This document shows, in pieces, positions 1-56,900 of a stretch of DNA of 64,000 bases. The first letter of the stretch is position 1. Each line of letters starts with the position of its first letter. The stretch comes from Gigantopelta aegis (taxonomy: Eukaryota; Mollusca; Gastropoda; Neomphalida; Peltospiridae), in assembly GCF_016097555.1 (NCBI RefSeq), contig NC_054704.1, forward strand, positions 97,761,351 to 97,825,350, given 5' to 3'. Under the pieces are notes generated by a model. The model saw only the letters and a program-made list of their open reading frames with translations. It made no database searches and was not told the DNA's origin. A program made the translations under genes and the position numbers.

Positions 1-3000
1 CTCTGGAGGAAGGTTGCACTCAACAGAAAACTGGACGAGAAGAAACAACAACTGAAAACCAGCAGAGAAAAACTTGTAAAAGAAGTTCAACATTATCATG
101 TATGTACTGGAGTCAGGGGAAGGTCAGACCCAAAATGCAAATCTAAACACTGTTCTATTGGTCAGAAAATATTGTCACTCAGTATTACCTAACAATTTTG
201 ATTTGTGACCACAATAAAACAAATGTTCCAATTATGTTAATTATTGTTATTAGGAATAGGGCTACTTTATTTTATGTCAAATTAGAGAAGTCTATATAAA
301 GTCAACTGGGTCCCACTTGTAATAGTATGATAAATTATTTTATAAGCCAAACTGATACCCAAGTCAAACTGTACCTGAATTTTAATGGAATTCTTGCCAG
401 CATATGACTTGCCAGCATATAAATCCAATTTGACTGCAATCATTAATCTGGATTAAGTTTAAAAATGACCTGTACATTACCCTAGGTACAATGTAACAAA
501 TTTAAATGTTATTACAGACATCAGGGATGCGACACCCATTTAAAAGTTGAAATCATCTTGAAAAAGTTGAAAACTATTTTATACTTTAACAGGGCTAGCT
601 CTGGCACTCGTCAAATTCACCAACTGCGAATTTTGAAAGCAATTTGCAAATTTTATTTTCATTTGGCAAAATTATTTTATGTAATAACTGACATTTTTTA
701 GAAAATAACTGTTGATTTCTGCAATTTTTTAAGTTTATATGGACAATTTGGTGAAATGTTTAGCTCACCCAGAGCTAGCCCTGCTTCTGTTAAAAATATT
801 CAACATGTCGGATTCAGTCTATATAATTTAAAAAATGTGAAACAGTTTCATCAAAAATTCTGATTCATTTTTAAGAGTAACAAAATAACTTATATGCAGA
901 TCTAACTTATATCATGGAGAGTCATTTAAGATATTACCATGCTGAGCATTGATATGTTTTTTAAATTCACATGCTAAGGGGAGCTAAAATTACTCTCCTT
1001 GAACTAGTCTCGAGGATGTGAGTTATGGAAAACCAAATTTATCCCATTTCCATTTCAACTTATTCTCGTGATTATGTCCAATTAAGGTTCATGTACACTG
1101 TCCACACACCTCAGCTGTTTGAACTGTCTGATAGTCAGTTAGTTGTTCGTGGTTAGTGATACATATGTTGGTGTAGTGGTCTTACACCTAGCCATCGAGT
1201 CGTTAACTCTTCGTGGGAGCCAGTATTACCAGAGTGATATCTCCCCTTAAATAGTGATGCCTGCCCATTTAAAATTAACTGCATGTATTTTTTTCTATCT
1301 TCCCAGTTGGACCCTAATTTACAGAAAGAGATTGTCCATTTATCTGTTGAAGCGCTGCAGAACAGACTGCAGACAGGAAAGCTGAAAGCGATGGATGTCC
1401 TGAGAGCGTACCAAGCAGAGGTCAGTGATGTGAAATCTTTGGAAATCAACAGAAATTTATATACAATTAATGTTCAAGCTTTGAGCTGCTGTGGACACAT
1501 ACACACACACACCTCAGCTACTATCAGATCTGTCTGTTCAGGACAGTGGTTTAATGGTGTTAGTATTTGTTTAACGACACCACTAGAGCACATTGATCTA
1601 TTAATCATTGGCTATTGGATGTCAAACATACATGTATGGTAATTTGTATACAGTGATAGGTGAGGAAACCCGCTAAATTTTTCCATTAGTAGCAAGGGAT
1701 CTTTTATATGCACCATCCCACAGACAAGATAGCACATACCACAGCCTTTGATATACCAGTCGCGGTGCACTAGCTGTAATGAGAAATAGCCCAATGGACC
1801 CACTGGCAGTGATCGATCCTAGACCGACCGTTGTTCAGACATGCACTTTACCACTAGGCTACATTCTGAATCCCCCCCCCCCCCCCCCAACCGAAAAAAG
1901 CCCAAAGTGATGATATTACAGAAGATGGATCATCATAAGAATGAAACACGCTGATTAATGCATATTTTATACTGTATTATTAACATTAATTGCCCCTGTA
2001 TGTGCCGTTCCTCATTGTGGTACAGAGGTGGCAACATTCTCACGGGTTTCCAAAAGCCTCTGTGATACTGTATTATTAACATTAATTGTCCCTGTATGTG
2101 CCGTTCCTCATTGTGGTACGGAGGTGGGCAACATTCTCACGGGTTTCCAAAAGCCTCTGTGATACTGTATTATTAACATTAATTGTCCCTGTATGTGCCG
2201 TTCCTCATTGTGGTACGGGGGTGGCAACATTCTTACAGTTTTCCAAAAGCCTCTGTGATACTGTATTATTAACATTAATTGTCCCTGTATGTGCCGTTCC
2301 TCATTGTGGTACAGAGGTGGCAACATTCTTACAGGTTTCCAAAAGCCTCTGTGATACTGTATTATTAACATTAATTGTCCCTGTATGTGCCGTTCCTCAT
2401 TGTGGTACAGAGGTGGCAACATTCTCACGGGTTTCCAAAAGCCTCTGTGATACTGTATTATTAACATTAATTGTCCCTGTATGTGCCGTTCCTCATTGTG
2501 GTACGGAGGTGGGCAACATTCTCACAGGTTTCCAAAAGCCTCTGTGATAATATTTTCAAATGTTTTTCATTTTGTGCTCATAATTTGGTGGCTTACTGGT
2601 TTTTTGACCACATCATTCATTTTTGTCTTTTCAGATATTTATTTTTGGTTTGTTGTATTGATCTTTCACAGCAGTTTACTTTTTTTGGCTTGATAATTTG
2701 ATGAAATATTAGTTTGTTTACCAGTTCCATACAATATTTTTTATCGTCTGATAATAATGTTTATTTCTGTCTTTTTAGTATTTAATGTTGATATGGTTCA
2801 TTGATGAACATGTTGTTTAACCTTTCCCAGTTAACATTTTCATACAATATAATATATTATTTATATTAATAGTTTGTAATTTAAAAACTCTGTTCCATTT
2901 TGAGGGAACTTATGAGTGTATACATTGTAACTATTACACATCAGTAAGTTTCCCCGAAATTAAAACTGTTTCTTTTAGAAAGCTATTTTGAAAAACACCT

Positions 3001-6000
3001 TGACCTTGCAGGCCCTGCTTGTAGATGACAGACTGAATTGTATTTCTGAAACTCTGTTGGAGGCGACCGACCGTGCTTGTGACTGCGACTCAAACAAAGG
3101 TCAGAAGGGAATGCTGCATGGCGTCCCTGTCAGTGTGAAAGAAAACTATAATATTCAGGTCAGTTTGTTAGAACAATTCTCACAGTGTATGTTCCTTGAA
3201 AACTATAACATAGCCTTCAGGTCAGTTTGTTAAAACAATTCTCACAGTGTATGTTCCTTGAAAACTATAACATTCAGGTCAATTTGTTACAACAGTTCTC
3301 ACAGTGTATGTTCCTTGAAAACTATAACATTCAGGTCAGTTTGTTAGAACAGTTCTCACAGTGTATGTTTCTTGAAAACTAACATTCAGGTCAGTTTGTT
3401 AGAACAGTTCTCACAGTGTATGTTTCTTGAAAACTAACATTCAGGTCAGTTTGTTAGAACAGTTCTCACAGTGTATGTTTCTTGAAAACTAACATTCAGG
3501 TCAGTTTGTTAGAACAGTTCTCACAGTGTATGCTCCTTGAAAACTATAACATTCAGGTCAGTTTGTTAGAACAATTCTCACAGTGTATGTTCCTTGAAAA
3601 CTATAACATTCAGGCCAGTTTGTTAGAACAATTCTCACAGTGTATGTTCTCTGAAACTGTAACATTCAGGTCAATTTATTAGAATAAATGTCATTTGTCA
3701 GTGTTTGTTCCTTGAAAACCTGGAAAATATGGTACAGTATGTAATATATGTACCTGTATATTTTTGTAATCTCTTATTTAAAAACAAACAGCACATGCTA
3801 AGGGTAAACATGGGTTGTGTACACATATTATCATACAAATGGGGGGGGGGGGGGGGGATAGTCAGTTTAGGGGTCAACTGCTCCCCCTCCAGTGCAAAAA
3901 CGATGGAGATATTCGGGCAAAATGAGCCGGGTCTGAAACCATTTAACATTATATTTTCATCACTCTTCTCACAATATTCGCTGTAATCTATGTGAAAATA
4001 TGTCATGATTTTATTGCAACCATTTCTTAGAATGCTAAGATGAATAAACATCGTTATCCATATTCAGGCAAACATCAGCCTGCCCCACCTACAAAATGGA
4101 AGCCCGTATGCCTATGTGTACATAATAATAAAACACCTCATAGTGTACGGCAGGGGTGGGGAAAAGCCCTTTTTTCCCAGTCTGGGACCGATTCTCGATC
4201 TCTGAGACCGAAATCATTTTTGAAAAACGCGCGTTTGCCAGTCCCACTTTTGTCATTCTTGTCGGTCCGAAGCACCTGTCCATTTCTATTATTGGAACAA
4301 ATTCCTATCGGTCAAGTGGACCGGCCAGCCCAGATATCGGTATCTCGTGCATGATCTAAAATAATAAATAAATAGTGGTCAATATGGCTGGTATTTCAGA
4401 CATTTGTGATTTTAAAGTCTGCCTAAGTATATTGCCAGTCACTGAAGTCGGACCTACAGTAGTGTCAATCGACTGCCACTAGACTACCATCAAGGTATTA
4501 CACTCCAATTAAAACAAAGGACCCAGAATTTGCAACTGGTTACAATCAACACCTGTCAACACCTGTGTACGGAGCTCTGGGAGTCTGTCGGGTCGAGTGT
4601 CCTAGTCTGAAACAAAAGGCTTTTGTGCAATACAAACTGCTTAAAATAGCATGAAATATAATGAAATAATCTATAAATGTATTTATTGTTGACTGTTCAA
4701 TGTAGTGTATCCAATAATTATAAAGGAGTTTAAACTTAACAACAGGTTTCCACCTTTTTTTTAACAAGTGGGAGTAAGCAGAACAGCTACATGCACTGTT
4801 ATCTCAAGAACCAGTAGAGGTAAAATTTCATCCAATCAGTGATGAAGTTATTACTCTCTTTGTCTAAACATGTGCTAGCTTAGGCTGTCAAACGCTTCGA
4901 ACAGTGCCATCTTTTATTAATTTTCAGGACACTACTGAATACTCGTACTTTTTATACATATATGGGAATTAAAATTCATAACTTTTATTCCTTTTTTATA
5001 TTATTTATTCTATTATTTATTCTATTATGTAAAATATATACAATTTGTGGGGTTTGTCACAGATCATTATTATGTGATTAATTTTTTATTTCTTCATGTT
5101 TTCATGTTTATCGTTTTGCATTCATGATTCAAGATAAAACTATACAAATATCACTATGATTTAAAAAAAAAACCATTTGACAAATATCGTTTTTTAATTT
5201 ATTTTTATTTTTATTCGTTTCTTCTCTCTCCTGGTTCCTGGCTGTGAACCCAGTACCTACCAGCCTTATGTCCGATGGCTTAACCACGACACCACCGAGG
5301 CCGGTTTATATTCTATAAAGGAAACTTAAACATATAACAGATATTATGATCAAGTCACATGGTGGTAAAAGGTGATCTGTATATGTTATTACCACACTAG
5401 AATACATTTCATTTTCAGCCTCATTTATAATGTTAAGTTCTTCATCATTTATAGTGTGTGATCTGGATAATTCTGAAAAAAGGTTACCATGTGAAAATTT
5501 AACTATAAGCATGTTGTTACATTAATTATGGCAGCATGCAATTACTGAGGGCTTTGGGATGATTTTATAACATATGTTGTTAGTCTTAGAGAACATTAAT
5601 GTGCATGTATTTCTTCTATTTCACAGGGATATGACACAACTATAGGTATGGAATATTTCATAAACAAACCAGCTGATGAAACTGCCGTTCTGATTCAGGT
5701 ACTTTACACAGGTGTCTAGCCATAAACTGTATTAAAATCTGTATTAAATCAGAACCATTAAATTTTGGATACTGAACAAACCATATGCATGAAGATCCAA
5801 ATGTTATCTATGCCTTAAAATCTATGACCATTGAGAAGTATAGTTAAGGTAACTCTTAACACATGGAACAAAATGTGTGCTTTTTGTGAGGCCCAGGTTT
5901 ACCGAATGTTTAGAAAAAAAAAATTTGACATCAGTTATCATAAATCATGAGATATGATGTCAGTCACCAATACTTGACATATTTAGAAATTTAGACAGAT

Positions 6001-9000
6001 TTATCTAGCCCTATGCAAAATGTGGCTAATTCAGTCCAGTTGGCAGCTACTACAGTACTGGAATGGGCAGATTAAAACTGATGTTTTTCCATTGGCCATT
6101 TAGTATACGTTTAAACATTGTATTCTCATCCAGTTATCTTGTGAGCTGGAATGGTATCTCAAGGTTGAGAAATGGAAGGAAGGAATATTTTATTTAATGA
6201 CACACTCAACACATTTTAATTATGATTATATGGCATCAGACATACGGTTAAGAACCATACAGATGAAGAGAGGAAACCCACAGCCACCACACCATTGGCT
6301 AAGTACTCTTTCTGATGACAAGGGATCTTTTACATGCATCATCCCACAGACATTCATGATAGTACATACCACAACCTTTGTTGCACCAATTGTGGTGCAC
6401 TGGCTGGAATGAGAAATAACCCAATGGGACCACCAATCCTAGACTGACCACACATCAGGCGAGTGCTATACCATTGGGACACTTCATTTTGCTTGAGAAA
6501 TGGTCTGATGGGATAAGTTTTACTAACAACCTGCTATGTTCATTTCGAATGACCATTATCTCAAGCTATTTGGTTCAGTCCGAGACATGACTATGGAACT
6601 ATTTGAGAGGAGTGATTAATGGCTCCCCACACCTAGACTATGGGGAGCAGCTGTTGAAGATATTTCCATATTGAGCATTGAGAACTAATCCTTTAGCAAT
6701 ACGATACATGTACAATTGTTTTCTTAAATTCACATGGTATAGGTGTTACTCTTATTGAACTAGTCTCAGGGGAGTGATTGGGAGTAAAAGTGACAGCTCC
6801 CCATAGAGGGCAAGGTCTGTAGTGCCTACATGAAGATAACCATATATATAGTTTGACCATATATTGGAAATAAGCTGCAGACATGTAAGCATATAACTGG
6901 GACCATTTCAAAGTCTTTTGTTTTTCACCCACTTTGTCATTTTTGTTATTACATTTCAATTGAATGAAACAAAAATTTAAATATTTATCCTAGCTTAGAT
7001 GTCTAGTAAATATTTAAATTAAATCTCTCTGTCAGGTGTTAGAAAGACAAGGAGCTATACCTTTTGTGAGAACGAACGTGCCACAGACAATGTACAGGTA
7101 TGATGTTTTTGACACTTTTATTTTCCATTTAAGACATTCATTTCCATGCTTATATCGAGTTAAAATTCAAACGCTCTCTGTTGCAGAGACATCAGCTACA
7201 TGTATCTGGCCCATATTTGCGAGACAGAGATTATAGATTATTATAGATGTTTACCTATTTTCCTCATTTTTGATATTTATTAAATCATTAAATTAGAGAT
7301 ACTTAGCTAATTTCCCCAGTTATTCATGTAAATGATTGGTTCAGCAAAAACACAATATAATGAACAAGTGTTATGGTTTTTGTTACTAATTTCCCAAATT
7401 ATTCATATAAATGATTGATTTAGTACATATACAGCATAATTAACAAGTGTTTTGGTTTTTGTTAAATTATTGATTCAATAAATACACTATATAATTGAAA
7501 TGTGTTATGGTTTTAGCTATTCTTGCTCTAATCCAATATATGGCGTCACCAAGAATCCGCATGACGTCGCCAGATGCCCAGGGGGTTCGAGTGGGGGAGA
7601 GGCTGCTCTGATTGGCGGTGGAGGCTCATTGATGGGTATCGGAGGTGATATTGGCGGCAGTCTGCGAATTCCGGGTAACATGTGTGGAATTTATGCCCTA
7701 AAGCCAACATACGGCAGGTTGAGGTGAGTTTGTCATTCCAGACAGCAGCATTCAAACTTGCAGGGACTGTCCTGAGTTTCCTGCCATATGGTAACATGTA
7801 TATGACATACAGAACCTTTTTGATGACTAAAATTACATACTTAGCCTAGTATTACCAGTAAAGATATTTTCTGGTTTAGAATATCAGTGACTGTATAAAT
7901 AAGGTGTTTGTTGTTGTACTAAGTAGTTGAAATCAGATTTTACCTTCCAATAATCCCGTATGTATGAACAAATATATATTACGATGTAAAGTGAAAAATG
8001 ACTGCTACAAACGTAAGTGCATGATATACAAATACATTGGATATACAGACAGTGGTATTCTAAATAAAAAAATGTATTTAATATGTAATTTTAGTCACCA
8101 AAAAGACTGTTAGTTGGAAACATCTTACAATGACTGCAAACTCGAGTCCCTTTAGGAACTTGCTGACTATGGCAATTTTGAAATGGTTTTGCCATAGGAA
8201 TATTGCTCATTTATGGCAATTTTGTGCCTTTTTACAGAAATTTTAAACAAGTAACTATTGCAACAAATATAAAAATGAAAAACATTTTTCATTCAACGAA
8301 TGCTGAGGGGCACATACCCCATCCCCCTTTTGTCCCTGACGTCAAAAAAGAAACAGTAATTAAAGCCTGTTCAACATCTCTTACCATGTCCCGTGATCTC
8401 CCTTCACGGATCTCCCCTAGATCCATGTCCCGTGATCTCCCTTCACGGATCTCCCCTAGATCCATGTCCTAGCATTTATTAAATGTATTTCTTTCACCAC
8501 TTAGTGATCTGTATAACCAATACGATTTTACAGTTTTAACTGCAATATTGGTACTGCTGTATTAATATTATGGCAAGTTTAGATAAATTATTAAGTTTAT
8601 ACGTGAAATGTAGATAGACTGTTAAGGTATAATTATGTTTTGATTCTCATCATTTATCTTTTTTAAAACAGTAAAAAAGGAATGTTTTCAGTTGGAAGTG
8701 GACAAACATTAGGTAAGAAAGTTGACATTTACATTCATGCATTGTCTATTATATGTAAATTTTTTAAACGTTGTCTAGCCTGCTGTAATTTGGTTTAAGC
8801 AATATTAATTTCCAAAGAACAATATATAAAGGAATCACCTCGAATGTTTTTTAATATGGAAAATATCAACGAAGTCCATGTTAATCGGTGTTTGTTGAGG
8901 CTCTCCAAAACAAATATCAACCAAGTCCGTGTTAATCGGTGTTTGTTGAGGCTCTCCAAAACAAATATCAACCAAGTCCGTGTTAATCGGTGTTTGTTGA

Positions 9001-12000
9001 GGCTCTCCAAAACAAATATCAACCAAGTCGCTGTTAATCGGTGTTTGTTGAGGCTCTCCAAAACAAATATCAACCAAGTCCGTGTTAATCGGTGTTTGTT
9101 GAGGCTCTCCAAAACAAATATCAACCAAGTCCGTGTTAATCGGTGTTTGTTGAGGCTCTCCAAAACAAATATCAACCAAGTCCGTGTTAATCGGTGTTTG
9201 TTGAGGCTCTCCAAAACAAATATCAACCAAGTCCGTGTTAATCGGTGTTTGTTGAGGCTCTCCAAAACAAATATCAACCAAGTCCTTGTTAATCGGTGTT
9301 TGTTGAGGCTCTCCAAAACAAATATCAACCAAGTCTATGTTAATCGGTGTTTGTTGAGGCTTGTTGAGGCTCTCCAAAACAAATATCAACAAAGTCCATG
9401 TTAATCGGTGTTTGTCGAGGCTCTCCAAAACAAATATCAACCAAGTCCATGTTAATCGGTGTTTGTCGAGGCTCTCCAAAACAAATATCAACCAAGTCCG
9501 TGTTAATCGGTGTTTGTCGAGGCTCTCCAAAACAAATATCAACCAAGTCCGTGTTAATCGGTGTTTGTCGAGGCTCTCCAAAACAAATATCAACCAAGTC
9601 CGTGTTAATCGGTGTTTGTCGAGGCTCTCCAAAACAAATATCAACCAAGTCCGTGTTAATCGGTGTTTGTCGAGGCTCTCCAAAACAAATATCAACCAAG
9701 TCCGTGTTAATCGGTGTTTGTCGAGGCTCTCCAAAACAAATATCAACCAAGTCCGTGTTAATCGGTGTTTGTCGAGGCTCTCCAAAACAAATATCAACCA
9801 AGTCCGTGTTAATCGGTGTTTGTCGAGGCTCTCCAAAACAAATATCAACCAAGTCCGTGTTAATCGGTGTTTGTTGAGGCTCTCCAAAACAAATATCAAC
9901 CAAGTCTATGTTAATCGGTGTTTGTTGAGGCTGTCCAAAACAAATATTTTACATGTTAAAAACACAAGTAGTGAATTCTATTTATCCTATAACACTTCTA
10001 AAATAACATCAGTCTTGTTGGCTTGTAAACAAATGACTCATTGACAGCAACAAAATATTCACCTAGTTAATAAATAGAGACTTATTTTCTTGCCCACTAG
10101 ACTGAATTAGCCAGCTTTTGCATGGTGATAAATAAATCTGTCTAGCACCCCAGTGCTGGACGATTTTTACATACGCTTTATGCTATAACTCATGTTTTAC
10201 AATGATTGATGTCATAACTCATGGTTTTCAAAATTCTGTTTGCCAGTTCATGCAAATTAATATTTTCAACCCTATATTTATTGGTAAGTTGTTACATTTT
10301 TATATCGTTGCATAAAATGGACTATATTTTTCTGTGTATGATTAAGTGAGTTTGTAGGTGAAATGTTTACGAATCATTCTACAATAAACAAACCGTTGCT
10401 TACAAAGTTAATATTTTGTTACTGTAATTAAATGGGCAAGAAAAGGAATCAATCACCATTGTGTGGTATAGATAAGGCAATTACAACCCTCGGGACAAAA
10501 TGTTTTTTATAAGGGCCTCGGTAAACCACGGACCTCACAAAAAAACATTTTGTCCCGAGAGTTGGAATTGCAATATCTATACCTCACAACAGTGATAGAT
10601 TCTATTAATATGAGCTTGTTTGTAATACTGATTTTATGAAATGAGTGTCAATGTTTTTGTATGGCCGAAGCGAGAGCAAGGGTAATACCTGAATCCTGAC
10701 ACGAGTTTGTTACAATCAGTACAACTCACATGCGAGTGTAATAATTTCTTTATTATCCATAATACAATGTATTATTATTTTTTTAATGAATAACAAGGGC
10801 CGTCTCAAAATGTTTTAATCACAACCAGAAAGAGACAACAAAATGACGTCATATTTCACAGGCACAGTCTGAGCTTGGACTGGGGAAGCAATGTCATGTT
10901 ATGATGTTGTTTCCCAAATTTACGTCATTACACTTGTTATTACACAACAGATGTAAGCCTATATTAAGGCCTCTCCGTACATACATTTCACAAGTACAAA
11001 TGATGGTATACAGCCAAGATGACAAACACAGTGTGTGATTAATTAATATTTTTGGGGCGGGGCATAAAATACATGCCTGATGCGCATACAGTGCCCATTG
11101 TGCTATTTCTTGTTCCAGCCAGTGCACCACGGCTGGTATATCAAAGACTGTGGTATGTGCTATCCTGCTTGTGCGATGGTGTATATAAAAGATCCCTTGC
11201 TACTAATGAAAAAAATTAGCGGGTTTCTTCTCTTAGACTACATGTCAAAATTACCAAACGTTTAACATCCAATAGCTGATGATTAATATGTGCTCCAGTG
11301 GTGTCGTTAACCCATACTTTATATTTAACTTTGTATCTTGTAGTGCAAGGGACACCCGGTCCCATGGGCCGTGATGTTGACACCATAGTAATGCTGCAAC
11401 AGGCTCTGCTCTCCCAAGATATGTTTGACCTTGATCCAGCTGTTCCACCAATTCCATTTAGAACTGAGGCAAGTCGGATGTATTTTATTTATTACAGTTT
11501 TTAGTTGATCAATATTTGCAGCCTTAAAAGTGTTTTGGTTTTTGTTGATGCAAATTAAACACACAGAGACACAAACAGTGCAAAAAGATTGTTTATCAGA
11601 TCTGTATCGTATCAGTTAGACATTTTATTAGTTGACGAAAATGAGTTTACAAGCCTCTGAGAATTGAGAATAATTTATATCGAATATTAAGCAACGGTTA
11701 AGCAAAAAACAAATTCAGTAACTCATTAAAAATACTCACATTTTGCATAGCTCATTTTGAATTTCTCATTCCAGCCAATGCACCACGACTGGTACATGTA
11801 CACAAATGTATATCAAAGGCCGTGGTATGTGCTCTCCTATCTGTGGGATGGTACATATAAAAGATTTCTTGCTACTAATGGAAACATAAAGCAATTTTCC
11901 TTAGCAAATGTTTGACATCCAATAGCCGATTATTAATAAATCAGTGTGCTCTAGTGGTGTCGTTATACAAAACAAACTTACTTTACCTCATTTTGATGAT

Positions 12001-41004: not shown

Positions 41005-43303
41005 ATGGAGTCGGACGCTTTCGCCAAATTACCGGACAACATTGTACTGGAAATTCTCAGCTACTTACCTGTTAAAGATTTATGCCTTTCTGGCAGGTAC
41101 TACTCCAGTTTATTATATTAAAGTATATAATTAGCATTCTGACTTCAGAATATTCTGTACCAACCGGGTGACGGGACGATCCCACTCGGAACCCTTCGGC
41201 AGAATCCGGGCGATTGCGATCCTGTTGCATTTCCGGATGCTAATTCGCCGTGTGTGTGTGTGTGTGTGAGAGAGCTAATGATCTTCTGTAAATGCTAAAA
41301 GATGTATTGCAGTTGTCCTCACCATGCCCAATTAAATTAGGCAATTGCTAATTTTTATGCAAAATGGCTATAACATCATCATAATGATCATTAAACATCA
41401 GGGTTGGAACTTAACGACGGCACCGATGGCAATTGCCGTCGTTGAGAGATAAATTGCCGTAGGTAGAGAGCTTCACCGACGGAACTTTTGTGCCATCGGA
41501 AAAGCTCAATAGTGGTAAAATGTACATTAAGTACCAATATTTTACGTTTGAATGTTTGTCTACATACAACAAAATAACCTTTCAGTTTATTTGCTGCAAA
41601 TAAACCTTTCAGTTTATTTGCTGCAAATGTCACTTTAAATGACAAAATTACCATAGGCAGACTCAAAATTGCCGTCAGTGGGTCCCTTTACCCATGGAAA
41701 TTCTTTAAAAAATTGCTGTGGTAGACAAATTCTTATGTTTGAGCACTGTAACGTTTTGTCTTTGGCTACTAAACATGTCCTTAAATTAACATCTTTTTAA
41801 AAGGAATTTTAAAGGAATTACTCAACTAAAACTAAAATTTGTTTTAGTGCGAGCCTTGCTGCAGATTGATTGCAGAGTTAAAAACTATAATATTGTATTA
41901 AATGATTGTGGTCTACTTTCAGAGTGTGTGCTAGATGGCGGCGAATTGTCCGGGACAACTCCTTGTGGCGCCATGTTGATCTTCTGCCCTACAGACTGAA
42001 CCTGCCCAAGATGTGGAAAGTACTGAGAGCACACTTTTCAGAATGCCTCCTCACTTTCCGACTGAGAGGCTTCCTCGATCCAAGTGGGTTCAAATACAAA
42101 CTTCAGTCTGCCGATAGTTGTTACATTGTTATAAAAGATTCTGTTCTGCTACTGGTATTAATGGGGGAAAATCAAATGGATATCCTTTACGATTATACCT
42201 CAGAATTGTTAGATATTTGACGTACAACAGCAGATGGTTAATAAATCAATGTGATCTAATCACCAAGTGGCAGGGAATATGGAGTGCTTTATTTGTGCTG
42301 CAGTTTTCGATGCATGTTTTAGAGATCGCTACACTGTACACAAGTCTAAAATATTACAAACTAGTTAGTAATCAATCTTCAAATTGATAGCAAATGTCTT
42401 TGATGAAACCTTTTTAAACAAAATCTTTGCCAAATGGTGGTGTTAAGCATGGTACGTCATGGACGTGATGGCACGCTTTATGATGCAGTTAATTTAATAT
42501 CACAAAAAAGCTTGGTCCATGATGTCATTCCAGCACATATATGAAAAGATTAAACAAAACAAACTTTCACTTTTAATGTTACAGGTGGTACGAAGTGGAA
42601 GAAGCATTCACTGTCGGATGCCATGCTTGGAGAACTTCGCGACAGATGTCCCCGGATTAAATCTCTTCACCTGGAACAGTGTAACACGGACAACTTGACC
42701 AGTGACAAACTGCCGAGCAGCCTCACTCAGCTCACTCTGAGAAACTGCTCCTGGCAGCCGCGCTGGCTCAAACCCAGCGACCAGATCCTCTCAAACCTGA
42801 AGCATCTCGACCTCAGTCAGACCACACGGGTGGACAACTTCGATGCAGAAGATATTTCCACATTTTCCAGTCTCGAGGAGCTGAAGCTCAATTCTTGTTA
42901 CAGAGTGGGAGAAACAGGACTTGAAAAATTGACCAAACTGTCTCGTTTGAGAGAGTTGGAGATATCGGGCACTGGGTGCACCGACATGGCGTTACATCAC
43001 ATCTGTAGACATCTTGGTGACTTACGACGACTTAATATCTCCAAGTGTACCAAGTTCACAGGTTCTAGTATTCAGAACATCGGGCTATCGCTGAAATGTC
43101 TTGAATATCTGAATGTTTCAGAATGCACACAGCTGAACCTAGCTTGGCTTCAGTGTCTATCAGGTTGTTCTAAACTGCGCGAGATCGACGTTTCAGGGGT
43201 TAATCTCACTGATGAGGATGAAAAGGCACTTGGTAAATTCATTGCATGTGTTACAATGGTTAAAAAGAAATTTGATGTTCAAAGTAAACACAAAGATAGT
43301 TGA
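41005..43303 (+). CDS. FBXL12: F-box/LRR protein, FBXL12-like, 3 exons, complete
   Basis: Exons 41005-41096, 41923-42083 and 42585-43303 (TGA) join in frame to 323 aa; human FBXL12 is 326. The N-terminus is an F-box (LPDNIVLEILSYLPVKDL, then VCARWRRIVRD, LWRHVDL), the Skp1-binding module of SCF ubiquitin ligases. Residues from about 95 on are leucine-rich repeats (LRELEISGTGC, LRRLNISKCT, LEYLNVSECTQ) that would bind the substrate. The ATG is the first possible start giving a complete F-box. Introns begin GTACTA (after CAG) and GTGGGT. The second has an atypical pre-donor base (CCAA|GTGGGT), but the frame and family alignment (FLDPSGTKWKK) support it. Convergent with CDKAL1. The FBXL12 name is by similarity; another small FBXL is possible. 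Confidence 0.88.
41399..41748. mobile_element. hAT-like MITE in FBXL12 intron 1
   Basis: Termini CAGGGTTGGAACTTAA and ttatgtttgagcactg are imperfect inverted repeats. The interior has several (c)attgccgtc motifs and a 26 bp direct duplication near 41578-41625 (aacctttcagtttatttgct). Non-coding. Confidence 0.55.
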
Positions 43304-50900: not shown

Positions 50901-53900
50901 CCACATCTCCACTACACCTACAAATACAATAAACTGTGTATTTGACTACTGGTGAACCACATCTCAACTACACCTTCTACAAATACAATAAACTGTGTAT
51001 TCGACTACTGGTGAAGTCCTTAATAAATCAGGGTGAGATGTAGCCCTGTGGTAAAGTGCACACTTGATGCATGGTCGGTTTTGGGATCAATTCCCATCAG
51101 TGGGCCCACTGGGCTATTTCTCTCTCCAGCCAGTGTACCACAACTGGTACATCAAAGGCTTTGGTATGTGCTATCATCTGTATGGGATTATGCATGTAAA
51201 AGATCCCTTGCTGCTAATTGAAAATGAGTAGCCCATGATTTGGTGACAGCGGGTTTCCTCCCTCAATATCTGTGTGGTCCTTAACCATATGTCCGACGCC
51301 ATATAACCATAAATAAAATGTGTTGAGTGCATCATTAAATAAACATGCTAAACTGCTCATAAATTTGGGGATTTAAAGAAAAACAAGACAGTTTCAAATA
51401 ACTGCAGCTAATATATTGAAAACAAATATAATTACCTTCAAAGGATTGCTTGGCTCGAGCTACTATTTCATCGGGATGGTAGCTACCGAGTTCTCCTCTC
51501 GCATGCTTTGTTTTACAGTAAGTACACTGATTGAGACACCTAAAATACAACAAGAATAATACATTCTCCAATTGTTGCTTCTTTCATAGATTTTTTCAAA
51601 CAATGTACTAAGAAGAGCCACAGAATTAGAGAGGCGATAAGAAGTCATTTATGGCATCTGTGCTACTACTGAGACCACCTGCAATTTGGATGTCTAAACA
51701 CAGAGTTTAATAACCACGAAGAAAGATCCCAAACAAATTAATATGAATGCACCTTTTTAGAAGTGTGTACTTACGAACTATTATAGCATACGACACTAAC
51801 ACTAAATGAATGTGAATGCACCTTTTTAGAAGTGTGTACTTACTAACTATTATAGCATACGACACTAACACTAAATGAATGTGAATGCACCTTTTCAGAA
51901 GTGTGTACTTACTAACTAGTATAGCATACGACACTAACACTAAATGAATGTGAATGCACCTTTTTAGAAGTGTGTACTTACTAACTAGTATAGCATACGA
52001 CACTAACACTAAATGAATGTGAATGCACCTTTTTAGAAGTGTGTACTTACTAACTAGTATAGCATACGACACTAACACTAAATGAATGTGAATGCACCTT
52101 TTTAGAAGTGTGTACTTACTAACTAGTATAGCATACGACACTAACACTAAATGAATGTGAATGCACCTTTTTAGAAGTGTGTACTTACTAACTAGTATAG
52201 CATACGACACTAACACTAAATGAATGTGAATGCACCTTTTTAGAAGTGTGTACTTACTAACTAGTATAGCATACGACACTAACACTAAATGAATGTGAAT
52301 GCACCTTTTTAGAAGTGTGTACTTACTAACTAGTATAGCATACGACACTAACACTAAATGAATGTGAATGCACCTTTTTAGAAGTGTGTACTTACTAACT
52401 ATTATAGCATACGACACTAACACTAAATGAATGTGAATGCACCTTTTTAGAAGTGTGTACTTACTAACTATTATAGCATACCACACTAACACTAAATGAA
52501 TGTGAATGCACCTTTTTAGAAGTGTGTACTTACTAACTATTATAGCATACGACACTAACACTAAATGAATGTGAATGCACCTTTTTTAGAAGTGTGTACT
52601 TACTAACTATTATAGCATACGACACTAACACTAAATGAATGTGAATGCACCTTTTTAGAAGTGTGTACTTACTAACTATTATAGCATACGACACTAACAC
52701 TAAATGAATGTGAATGCACCTTTTTAGAAGTGTGTACTTACTAACTATTATAGCATACCACACTAACACTAAATGAATGTGAATGCACCTTTTTAGAAGT
52801 GTGTACTTACTAACTATTATAGCATACCACACTAACACTAAATGAATGTGAATGCACCTTTTTAGAAGTGTGTACTTACTAACTATTATAGCATACGACA
52901 CTAACACTAAATGAATGTGAATGCACCTTTTTTAGAAGTGTGTACTTACTAACTATTATAGCATACGACACTAACACTAAATGAATGTGAATGCACCTTT
53001 TTAGAAGTGTGTACTTACTAACTAGTATAGCATACGACACTAACACTAAATGAATGTGAATGCACCTTTTTAGAAGTGTGTACTTACTAACTAGTATAGC
53101 ATACGACACTAACACTAAATGAATGTGAATGCACCTTTTTAGAAGTGTGTACTTACTAACTAGTATAGCATACGACACTAACACTAAATGAATGTGAATG
53201 CACCTTTTTAGAAGTGTGTCTTTACTAACTATTATAGCATACGACACTAACACTAAATGAATGTGAATGCACCTTTTTAGAAGTGTGTACTTACTAACTA
53301 TTATAGCATACGACACTAACACTAAATGAATGTGAATGCACCTTTTTTAGAAGTGTGTACTTACTAACTATTATAGCATACCACACTAACACTAAATGAA
53401 TGTGAATGCACCTTTTTAGAAGTGTGTACTTACTAACTATTATAGCATACCACACTAACACTAAATGAATGTGAATGCACCTTTTTAGAAGTGTGTACTT
53501 ACTAACTATTATAGCATACCACACTAACACTAAATGAATGTGAATGCACCTTTTTAGAAGTGTGTACTTACTAACTATTATAGCATACCACACTAACACT
53601 AAATGAATGTGAATGCACCTTTTTAGAAGTGTGTACTTACTAACTATTATAGCATACCACACTAACACTAAATGAATGTGAATGCACCTTTTTAGAAGTG
53701 TGTACTTACTAACTATTATAGCATACCACACTAACACTAAATGAATGTGAATGCACCTTTTTAGAAGTGTGTACTTACTAACTATTATAGCATACGACAC
53801 TAACACTAAATGAATGTGAATGCACCTTTTTTAGAAGTGTGTACTTACTAACTATTATAGCATACGACACTAACACTAAATGAATGTGAATGCACCTTTT

Positions 53901-56900
53901 TAGAAGTGTGTACTTACTAACTATTATAGCATACGACACTAACACTAAATGAATGTGAATGCACCTTTTTAGAAGTGTGTACTTACTAACTATTATAGCA
54001 TACGACACTAACACTAAATGAATGTGAATGCACCTTTTTAGAAGTGTGTACTTACTAACTATTATAGCATACGACACTAACACTAAATGAATGTGAATGC
54101 ACCTTTTTAGAAGTGTGTACTTACTAACTATTATAGCATACGACACTAACACTAAATGAATGTACTGAAGCTTAAAGGGACATACCCTAGTATTTAAACA
54201 CTAAGGTATATTTTTTCACCTAGACCCTAGTTTCAACCCGTAAAAATGAACACGAAGTTTGGTTAATTTACAAACGTGTAACAAATTTGGATACAACAGA
54301 GTGAAACACGGGTCTGTGATGTTGAAATACACTTGAAAATACACTAAAACGCGACTACATCACCGTTACTTCTCAGATGCATGTGGTATTAGAAACACCA
54401 GGATGACCAGAAACACTTCGGTTGTACAGAAATGGATAATCTAAACAATAAAATATAAGCAATGTTTGATAGATCCTAAACGGCTCTAATAATGAAGAAT
54501 ATACTTTGAGTGTTTAAAACCTAGGGTCTGTTCCTTTAACTACAGCAAAGTATGCAGATTAATCTATATTTACAGAACACAACTACAGCAAAGTATGCAG
54601 ATTAATCTATATTTACAGAACACAAAAAACACAAATGCAAATCAGGGTTAAATGTAATTAGAACAACTTTAGTACAAATGTTAATTTATGCCAAATAATA
54701 AACGGTATGTCAATCTGTAATTCTCCTGAATCTCAATATATATTAATATCTTCTTAAGAAACAAAATGTGCTATTAGAACTGAAAATTACATTTGAGATT
54801 CTTTCGGGGTTCTGTATATACAGTGAAATCTGTCTAAACCGGACCCTGAACATACCAAAATCCTGTCAAAACCTATGGTTCCGAATATTCTCTTATTTAA
54901 ACCATGTATTAAAAACCTGATAAAACCGGAACCTGTCCATTTCAGAAACCGGATTGATTTTTTGTTCAGAAATGTAAAATCCTTTATTACTTAACCTGAA
55001 CAAACCAGAGTAGTATAAATGATTGAAGAGTAAACTTAACGAAAACAAGACTTCCAGAAAACATTGAAGACCGGAATTTCTGCTGTCCAGCATCCGTTGT
55101 TACGTCACAGGTCACCAATTTTAGCCCAGCTTAGCAGACAGCAGAGTAATTAAGGCTTGATTGTTTTCATTTGTCCTGTCTGATGCAGTGCTGAGCACAT
55201 ACGTTATAGCTTCAGACAATTCTCGGATACTCACACATTAGGTTTTTCACCTTTGATTTTTAATCAATGCACTTTAATAATGAAACACTGACACACAGAG
55301 TAAAATGTTAGAAACAACTTGATTTAGAGTAAAATATACACATGTGACTTAATTTGTATATACTACATACATTGATACAAAAAGAAAATTTTATCTTTTC
55401 TGCGATAGATATGAAAAACCTCCAAGCTGAATTTTGCTAAAAAGAACAACTAAAAAACAAACAAACATGTCCCGACTACCACAGGCTAAACGTAGGCATG
55501 TGGAATTATTGTTGAAAGTAAAATTTGATTTGATTAAAAATTTGCAGTATGTACCAAAATTAACTCAAAAGGATTTGACAGCAACTAGCGCCAACAAAAC
55601 ACAATTCAGTACAGGCTGCAAATATGACGAACTGAATGAATTGACAAGGAAATGGTTTCAACATGCACGAGCAAAGAATATTCCCATATCCAGACCGATC
55701 ATTCAGGAAAAAGTTTTGAAAGTTTCATCTAATCTGCTGATTCAGGATTTTAAGGCTTCTAATGGATGGTTAGAAAGCTCCAAGTCACGCTTTTCTGTTC
55801 ATTTCAAGATCAGCGGTGAAAGTGCCGGTATTGATAACAACGTAATTGATGATTACAAACTGTCATTTTGTAACCTTAATTGTGGTAAAAACTAAATTAC
55901 ACTGAAATCTGTTGTTTTTAATTCTTTTAATGTCAATTAATAAAGATACATAACAAATTTGATGTCAAGGGAAATAACTCTATATTCTAAAACGTGACCC
56001 TCTAAACACCAGATTCTCTCCAAACCAGATAAATATTAGGTCCCCGACATGATCCGGTTTAGACAGGTTTCACTGTATCTAGCACAAGCATACCAATTCT
56101 ATATGGGCAAATTATGGGTTAAAAAAAAAACCTGCAGAGTAAAAACAATTAGTTAAACAAAACTAAGAGTTAATATAAATTTAAACTTAAATGTACAAAG
56201 GCTGCACTAGAATTATACACACACCATGAATGAATTATTGATGTTTAATGACACTCCAGCATAAGGAATAAATTGTCTACTAGAGTCCTTCCCACAGGGA
56301 ACGCCTTTTTTCATAGTGAGGAATTTACTACAAGTTATTTATTTCTGAGCCGATTGTTTTCTAAGCTGGACACAAAAATAGTATTTTTTTTTATTCCAAA
56401 CACTTTTACTTTTCTTCTTATATCAAATCAAATTGAAATTATTTACAATCTTTTTTTGAAGGAGGATGGGACAGACAATAGGTGTCAAACAAAATGAAGT
56501 ACAGGAATGAATTGATCAAATCAGAGGTTCAAGAATCAAACCATGAGGCATGCTCATAAAAGGTTAAAGTTCGCATTGAAGACTTTAGCAATGCCTCCAG
56601 ACTTAAATTACATGCTATTTGTAAGTTTGAGACTTTATCAAAATTTCGAGTCTAGACTTTAGTTTTACAAGGACAGGCCCTGATCACAACTCTTTACCCT
56701 GTATTGATAGCAATTATCTCAATGAGGGGATTTTTGCGGATCTTTGGAAGATTCAATGCGGCGCCTCCAGTTTTCTTCCCTTTCTGTTTCTTCTGCCCAA
56801 ACAATCTCACTGTGTGACCTTTCAAGGTCTCTTCCACGACCTCAACAACCCGGTCAATTTGCTGCACACCAATAATACTAAGGCCCTGAAAAAATACACA

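Follow-up and report, generated by a model that had tools for sequence, protein, structure and literature searches.

The window, a stretch of 64,000 nucleotides of Gigantopelta aegis DNA, carries on its plus strand a FAAH-like gene that extends from approximately base 1 up to 33.7 kb. Exons 2–7, translated jointly, matched mammalian FAAH1 with an E value of 1.2e-51 (this query carried one surplus residue at the exon 6–7 joint), and the Pfam Amidase domain (PF01425) was detected in exon 3 (E = 1.2e-06) and in exon 6 (E = 3.9e-27), while exon 2 searched alone against Pfam gave no match. More exons were located by tblastn with a mammalian FAAH sequence as the query, and a stop follows the last one near 33.7 kb. 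Exon 3 lies between introns of 1591 nt (intron 2) and 2468 nt (intron 3), and its junction with exon 4 aligned to that of FAAH1 with no gap (KENYNIQ/GYDTT against KECFSYK/GHDST in FAAH1), which indicates that the site after position 3158 is the evolutionarily expected donor. With an Amidase domain and this gapless match, the gene is a predicted member of the FAAH or amidase signature family, and its identification as FAAH in an earlier note, made from the same DNA, is upheld. A small, diverged repeat with periods of 79 and 55 (window positions 7307-7516) reaches the exon 6 acceptor, and its last copy appears to be the source of the pyrimidine stretch before the exon 6 AG.

A minisatellite begins within exon 3 and continues into intron 3 (Table 1). 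TRF gave a period of 57 with 93% matches and a score of 868, and the full unit consists of 18 exon-end bases followed by 39 intron-start bases. Ten sites of the form CAG/G[TC]CA[GA]T (the slash marks the exon end) follow one another at spacings equal to the unit lengths of 62, 57, 57, 55, 55, 55, 57, 57 and 56 bp. The motif is exactly CAG/GTCAGT at seven of the ten, namely at the expected donor and at six of the nine further copies; the other three are changed, to CAG/GTCAAT twice (after 3277 and 3669) and to CAG/GCCAGT once (after 3613). The sequence CAGGTCAGT occurs seven times in the window, both strands counted, and all seven occurrences lie inside the array, against 0.41 expected from shuffles. 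In units 2, 3, 7 and 8 the exon-like tail is 18 bases long and differs from the exon by a single synonymous change, AAT to AAC; the tails of the remaining five units comprise 23, 16, 16, 16 and 17 bases. Units 4–6 are three identical 55-bp copies. The earlier note had described a minisatellite of copies of the exon end and its donor, about nine of them beyond the first, and both the 9.6 copies and the ten sites bear this out. Its roughly ten CAG/GTCAGT sites stand as ten donor-like sites, but the exact motif is restricted to seven; similarly, a 57-bp unit that includes the last 18 exon bases describes units 2, 3, 7 and 8, but not the five units with 16–23 such bases.

Table 1. Features of the FAAH-like locus. 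Positions are those of the window, except for the paralogue, which is given in contig coordinates; distances in brackets are from the expected donor.
Feature	Position	Strand	Remarks
Exon 3, FAAH-like	3012..3158	+	49 codons, both ends in phase 0, contains the GVPVSVK segment
57-bp minisatellite	3141..3684	+	9.6 copies, TRF
Exonic part of repeat unit, last 18 exon bases	3141..3158	+	
GAAAAC, left homology end, in exon	3141..3146	+	
Predicted productive donor GTCAGT, after 3158	3159..3164	+	In-phase join to exon 4, gapless FAAH1 match
Decoy 1 GTCAGT, after 3220 (+62)	3221..3226	+	
Decoy 2 GTCAAT, after 3277 (+119)	3278..3283	+	Weaker
Decoy 3 GTCAGT, after 3334 (+176)	3335..3340	+	
Decoy 4 GTCAGT, after 3389 (+231)	3390..3395	+	
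Decoy 5 GTCAGT, after 3444 (+286)	3445..3450	+	
Decoy 6 GTCAGT, after 3499 (+341)	3500..3505	+	
Decoy 7 GTCAGT, after 3556 (+398)	3557..3562	+	
Decoy 8 GCCAGT, after 3613 (+455)	3614..3619	+	GC type, lowest score
Decoy 9 GTCAAT, after 3669 (+511)	3670..3675	+	Weaker
Worn terminal half-unit	3670..3719	+	Homologous up to GAAAAC; scores 47, with no more than 26 reached in 1000 shuffles
GAAAAC, right homology end, in intron	3714..3719	+	
Exon 4, acceptor partner	5627..5698	+	Phase 0; rank 1 among 123 scored AG sites of intron 3
Region of the FAAH paralogue	97741001-97761000	minus	Upstream of, and opposite to, the FAAH-like gene

We then compared the strength of the donor copies and the products to which they would lead, using consensus donor and acceptor matrices, the U1 5' end and the nonsense-mediated decay rule. 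Among the 187 GT sites between positions 3000 and 5630, the seven exact copies were the seven top scorers, with identical consensus scores and identical U1 pairing energies; the two GTCAAT sites and the GCCAGT site scored below them. All seven, the expected donor included, have C at +3. Since the six exact decoys score just as the site after 3158 does, intrinsic strength cannot explain a discrimination between them. Concealment of the decoys by RNA structure was considered and rejected; in a single computed fold, on which no weight is placed, the donor 9-mer had a mean unpaired probability of 0.50 at 3158 and of 0.30-0.51 at the decoys. An apparent GC donor, GAG/GCAAGT, was seen at exon 8 (window positions 11469-11474), and the gene may therefore use GC sites; decoy 8 is likewise of the GC type, but distant from consensus.

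Splicing from 3158 keeps the frame open across exons 3–7, and all nine decoys give a premature stop. Decoy 1 shifts the frame, as the earlier note had anticipated from the 62-bp length of the first unit, and its computed product terminates within exon 4, while the products of decoys 2–9 all end at one shared TAA in unit 2, within the extended exon. This includes the decoy at +231, whose distance is the sole one divisible by three. The proximal site is thus required for a correct product, again as had been claimed.

We propose that the first donor remains the productive one. With long introns on both sides, exon 3 would be recognised as a whole, with the advantage going to the donor closest to the upstream acceptor; from the lengths of the two introns, the site after 3158 is therefore expected to dominate, with minor leakage. 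Occasional use of a decoy would yield frameshifted or stop-containing mRNA that would be removed by nonsense-mediated decay. The excerpted text of PMC9225289 reports that the donor closest to the downstream acceptor is favoured where introns are short, and the one closest to the upstream acceptor where they are long. In minigenes that combined two identical strong donors with introns of 365 nt, the upstream donor was used exclusively; among natural near-equal donor pairs the upstream one was favoured in only 60% overall, and larger exons were skipped when donors were weakened (PMC9225289, same excerpts). The donors in those minigenes were of a strong type to which the donor here, with C at +3, does not belong. 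Moreover, an earlier proximity rule that centres on the intron (that of Reed and Maniatis, summarised in PMC9225289), applied to this locus, predicts that the downstream copies would be used, and this counts against dominance of 3158. Overall, we give a probability of about 0.8 to the reading in which the array is a slippage minisatellite, 3158 is the productive donor and the copies are little-used decoys; what we infer within it is which donor is used, that exon definition operates in this species, that decoy products decay and that the array is neutral.

The borders of the array suggest how it may have arisen. Homology between exon and unit begins exactly at a GAAAAC hexamer (position 3141), and the sequence departs from the unit beyond a second GAAAAC at the far end of the worn half-unit, which is likely to be the original start of the intron. 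We suggest that the ancestral sequence had one GAAAAC in the exon and another about 45 bp into the intron, that slippage between these hexamers duplicated the segment across the exon 3/intron 3 boundary, and that after this first duplication the array expanded into the intron. Such an event would explain both ends of the repeat homology, and the identity of units 4–6 suggests that later expansion took place inside the array. Copying slippage, and not a designed switch, is the most likely origin, judging from these sequence features. An RNA-family origin was also considered and rejected, as Rfam gave nothing at gathering score across the whole window and a tRNA search found none.

We looked for signs of selection in the variation among units. 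Minority letters occupied 2 of 54 cells in the donor hexamer, 13 of 342 in the unit middle and 12 of 162 in the exon-like part, where gaps are scored as letters and the numbers are small. The donor motif is no less variable than the unit middle, and the decoys are neither specially conserved nor specially lost. The gene contains six arrays of at least 150 bp, one of which includes one of the 24 mapped junctions, a slightly low count in which exons 10 and 12 are unmapped and exon 1 has its end set by eye. When the six arrays were placed at random, 1.48 were expected to contain a junction, with a probability of 0.84 for at least one (a few junction coordinates in this test lie 1–3 bases off those used for site scoring). 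The single overlap is at chance level, and no special cause is therefore required. Sixteen larger arrays, smaller ones being left out, cover 7671 of the 64,000 bases of the window.

Comparison with a FAAH paralogue, which lies some 10–20 kb upstream of the window on the opposite strand, allowed the array to be placed in time relative to its intron. The equivalent exon of the paralogue ends at the same codon (KEAFYVQ/GYDCT) with the donor CAG/GTACAC, and no array is found at this boundary; a 21-bp repeat of 2.5 copies lies about 160 bp into the equivalent intron. As the intron position is common to both genes, the intron predates the array, which of the two genes compared only the FAAH-like one has. 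Other repeats in the paralogue are an array of eight 40-bp units that starts about 54 bp past another donor without including it, and an array of about 4 kb made of 47-bp units before its exon 2. In the 1.15-Gb assembly, the exact 30-base core of the unit, on which alone the uniqueness of the array is judged, was found at two places, both in the array. The exon 3 region together with 450 preceding intron bases gave a single full-length match, to itself, and the other 40 matches were partial and confined to the intronic part of the query.

Minisatellites that carry CAGGTCAGT are common in the assembly. Three copies at 40–70 bp spacing were found 299 and 408 times on the two strands, against 292 and 218 for the reversed pattern, a 1.4-fold difference in counts whose matches overlap within arrays, and these triplets come from at least about 23 separate places, counted by eye among the matches listed. 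The corresponding counts for CAGGTRAGT, with the same overlap, were 970 and 792 against 220 and 200, about fourfold, with many contributed by one 91-copy array; a genome-wide enrichment of donor motifs in minisatellites was considered and set aside. Among the matches listed, five CAGGTRAGT arrays were distinguished by eye, and in none of them did an evident coding exon finish at the first copy of the motif. This was a crude test of open frames before that copy, which at some loci itself falls within the array; two of the frames were scanned against Pfam, and the longest (66 aa) had no match, although it may still be coding. Long arrays of strong donor motifs elsewhere in the assembly included one of 34 bp x 91 (minus strand), one of 46 bp x 22, and one with a 43-bp unit and 54 CAGGTRAGT sites within a 9-kb locus; in one long donor-motif array an acceptor-like run precedes each CAG/GT. 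Within the window itself, we also observed a 51 bp x 21 minisatellite with long open stretches on both strands (8861-9947), a 69 bp x 35 minisatellite (51735-54163), a Tc5-type transposase DNA-binding domain (Pfam; 55431-55892) and a leucine-rich-repeat open frame (Pfam; 42554-43300).

The earlier note had left two readings side by side, a tunable splicing switch and a neutral slippage product. The second is the better fit, given GAAAAC at both ends of the homology, the absence of added conservation of the donor, the chance-level overlap of arrays with junctions, a window and genome rich in arrays, and a paralogue boundary that has none. A tunable switch is the less probable of the two and finds no positive support here. 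In one such form, the decoys would capture U1 and a fraction of the transcripts, leading to unproductive splicing tuned by copy number, such that longer arrays would give less FAAH-like output in an allele-dependent manner. We consider this unlikely. The match of six decoys to 3158 in both consensus score and U1 pairing energy and the stops in all nine decoy products agree with it, as do, in human ABCA7, the correlation between VNTR length and exon 19 skipping and the inverse one between VNTR length and expression (PMC5954066, in excerpt). According to the same excerpts, however, exon 19 skipping varies with array length while the retention of one unit is constant across VNTR sizes (PMC5954066), and at the present locus there is no donor-specific conservation in the array and exon definition would favour the first site.

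It is a long shot that the donor corrects itself, in the broad sense that a second splice would undo a wrong choice, loss of units would regenerate the coding end, and copy number would set the productive share. An exon copy joined to the tail of unit 2, 3, 7 or 8 keeps ENYNIQ/G, whereas a join to unit 1, 4, 5, 6 or 9 causes a frameshift or a stop, so that 4 of 9 joins are silent in the protein. If recombination removes units, populations would be expected to show the 18-base exon tail type only, and if the idea were true, array length could change inside the gene at little cost. The splicing component, in which the extension left by a decoy would be spliced out from 3158 to a unit-end AG, by re-splicing or along a ladder of AG/GT ratchet points, to regain the exact exon 3–exon 4 junction, is very improbable. 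The units do have the necessary ends, as each starts with GTCAGT or a variant (GT in 8 of 9, GC in 1 of 9) and finishes with TTCAG (AG in all 9), leaving 62–511 nt removable. Scoring for recursive splicing and micro-exons with the acceptor matrix gave 1.63-4.11 for the unit-end AGs and 2.29-3.75 for inner AGs. The mapped acceptor of exon 6, the lowest of the 12 mapped in the gene, scores 1.13, below all nine unit-end AGs; the matrix alone therefore cannot rule out their use. However, 11 of the 12 mapped acceptors score at least 5.68, and the unit-end AGs rank 14, 52, 51, 48, 47, 46, 50, 49 and 21 among the 123 AG sites of which the real acceptor is the first. The weakest alternative, that the copies stem from misassembly and are not in the genome, has in its favour that tandem arrays are error-prone and that one assembly was examined, but private variants among the units (62, 57, 55 and 56 bp, though units 4–6 are identical), the position of the array within a 102.9-Mb contig and the lack of a second full-length exon 3 region in the assembly make it barely credible. 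The copy number of the array in the assembly could nevertheless be wrong.

The locus provides a natural test of spliceosome choice among identical donors, with six decoys of equal consensus strength 62–398 nt behind the expected donor. Every wrong choice would leave a readable stop-containing product, and RNA-seq from this species would directly tell apart the two proximity rules, exon-centred and intron-centred. The locus also adds, from another animal, a minisatellite that repeats a donor as does the one in human ABCA7, an Alzheimer-risk gene, and it does so within a gene family of endocannabinoid degradation.

Two known systems share part of this arrangement. In genes of human segmental duplications, internal tandem repeats include a minisatellite across an exon-intron boundary with potentially altered splicing, as here; in the excerpts of that report (PMC2812944), the repeats were found by comparison of paralogues with transcript support and are said to form novel introns, whereas the present intron, shared with the paralogue, predates the array. 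Intron gain by tandem duplication in a potato RdRp gene (PMC4974935, in excerpt) involves duplication of a junction with AG/GT that supplies a new GT and a new AG. From its sequence, the array likewise contains duplicated AG/GT that would give GT...AG copies (one unit has GC), but its duplicates lie inside an existing intron and the unit-end AGs are low-scoring.

The closest known case is the VNTR in intron 18 of human ABCA7, for which the excerpted account (PMC5954066) describes an array that starts at the donor of exon 18, as it does here at that of exon 3, and a donor of the next unit that leads to an out-of-frame transcript, as does the computed product of decoy 1. The unit in ABCA7 is 25 bp long and begins at GT, the account naming no exon bases in it, and alleles range from 12 to ~427 copies with polymorphism and splicing effect measured (PMC5954066, same excerpts). 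The unit of the FAAH-like gene has 57 bp with 18 exon bases, and its array ten sites. As it starts at the donor and repeats the donor in each unit, the array can be classed by its sequence as a donor-containing intronic VNTR of the ABCA7 type, and it represents no new kind of mechanism, the kind being already known from ABCA7. Frameshifting retention of one unit of the ABCA7 array amounted to 2 ± 1% in the measured tissues, assuming that 'respectively' follows the order of events in that paper (PMC5954066, in excerpt). By analogy, the FAAH-like transcript would be mostly spliced correctly, with stop-containing leakage of at most a few per cent, and the length of the array may affect exon skipping.
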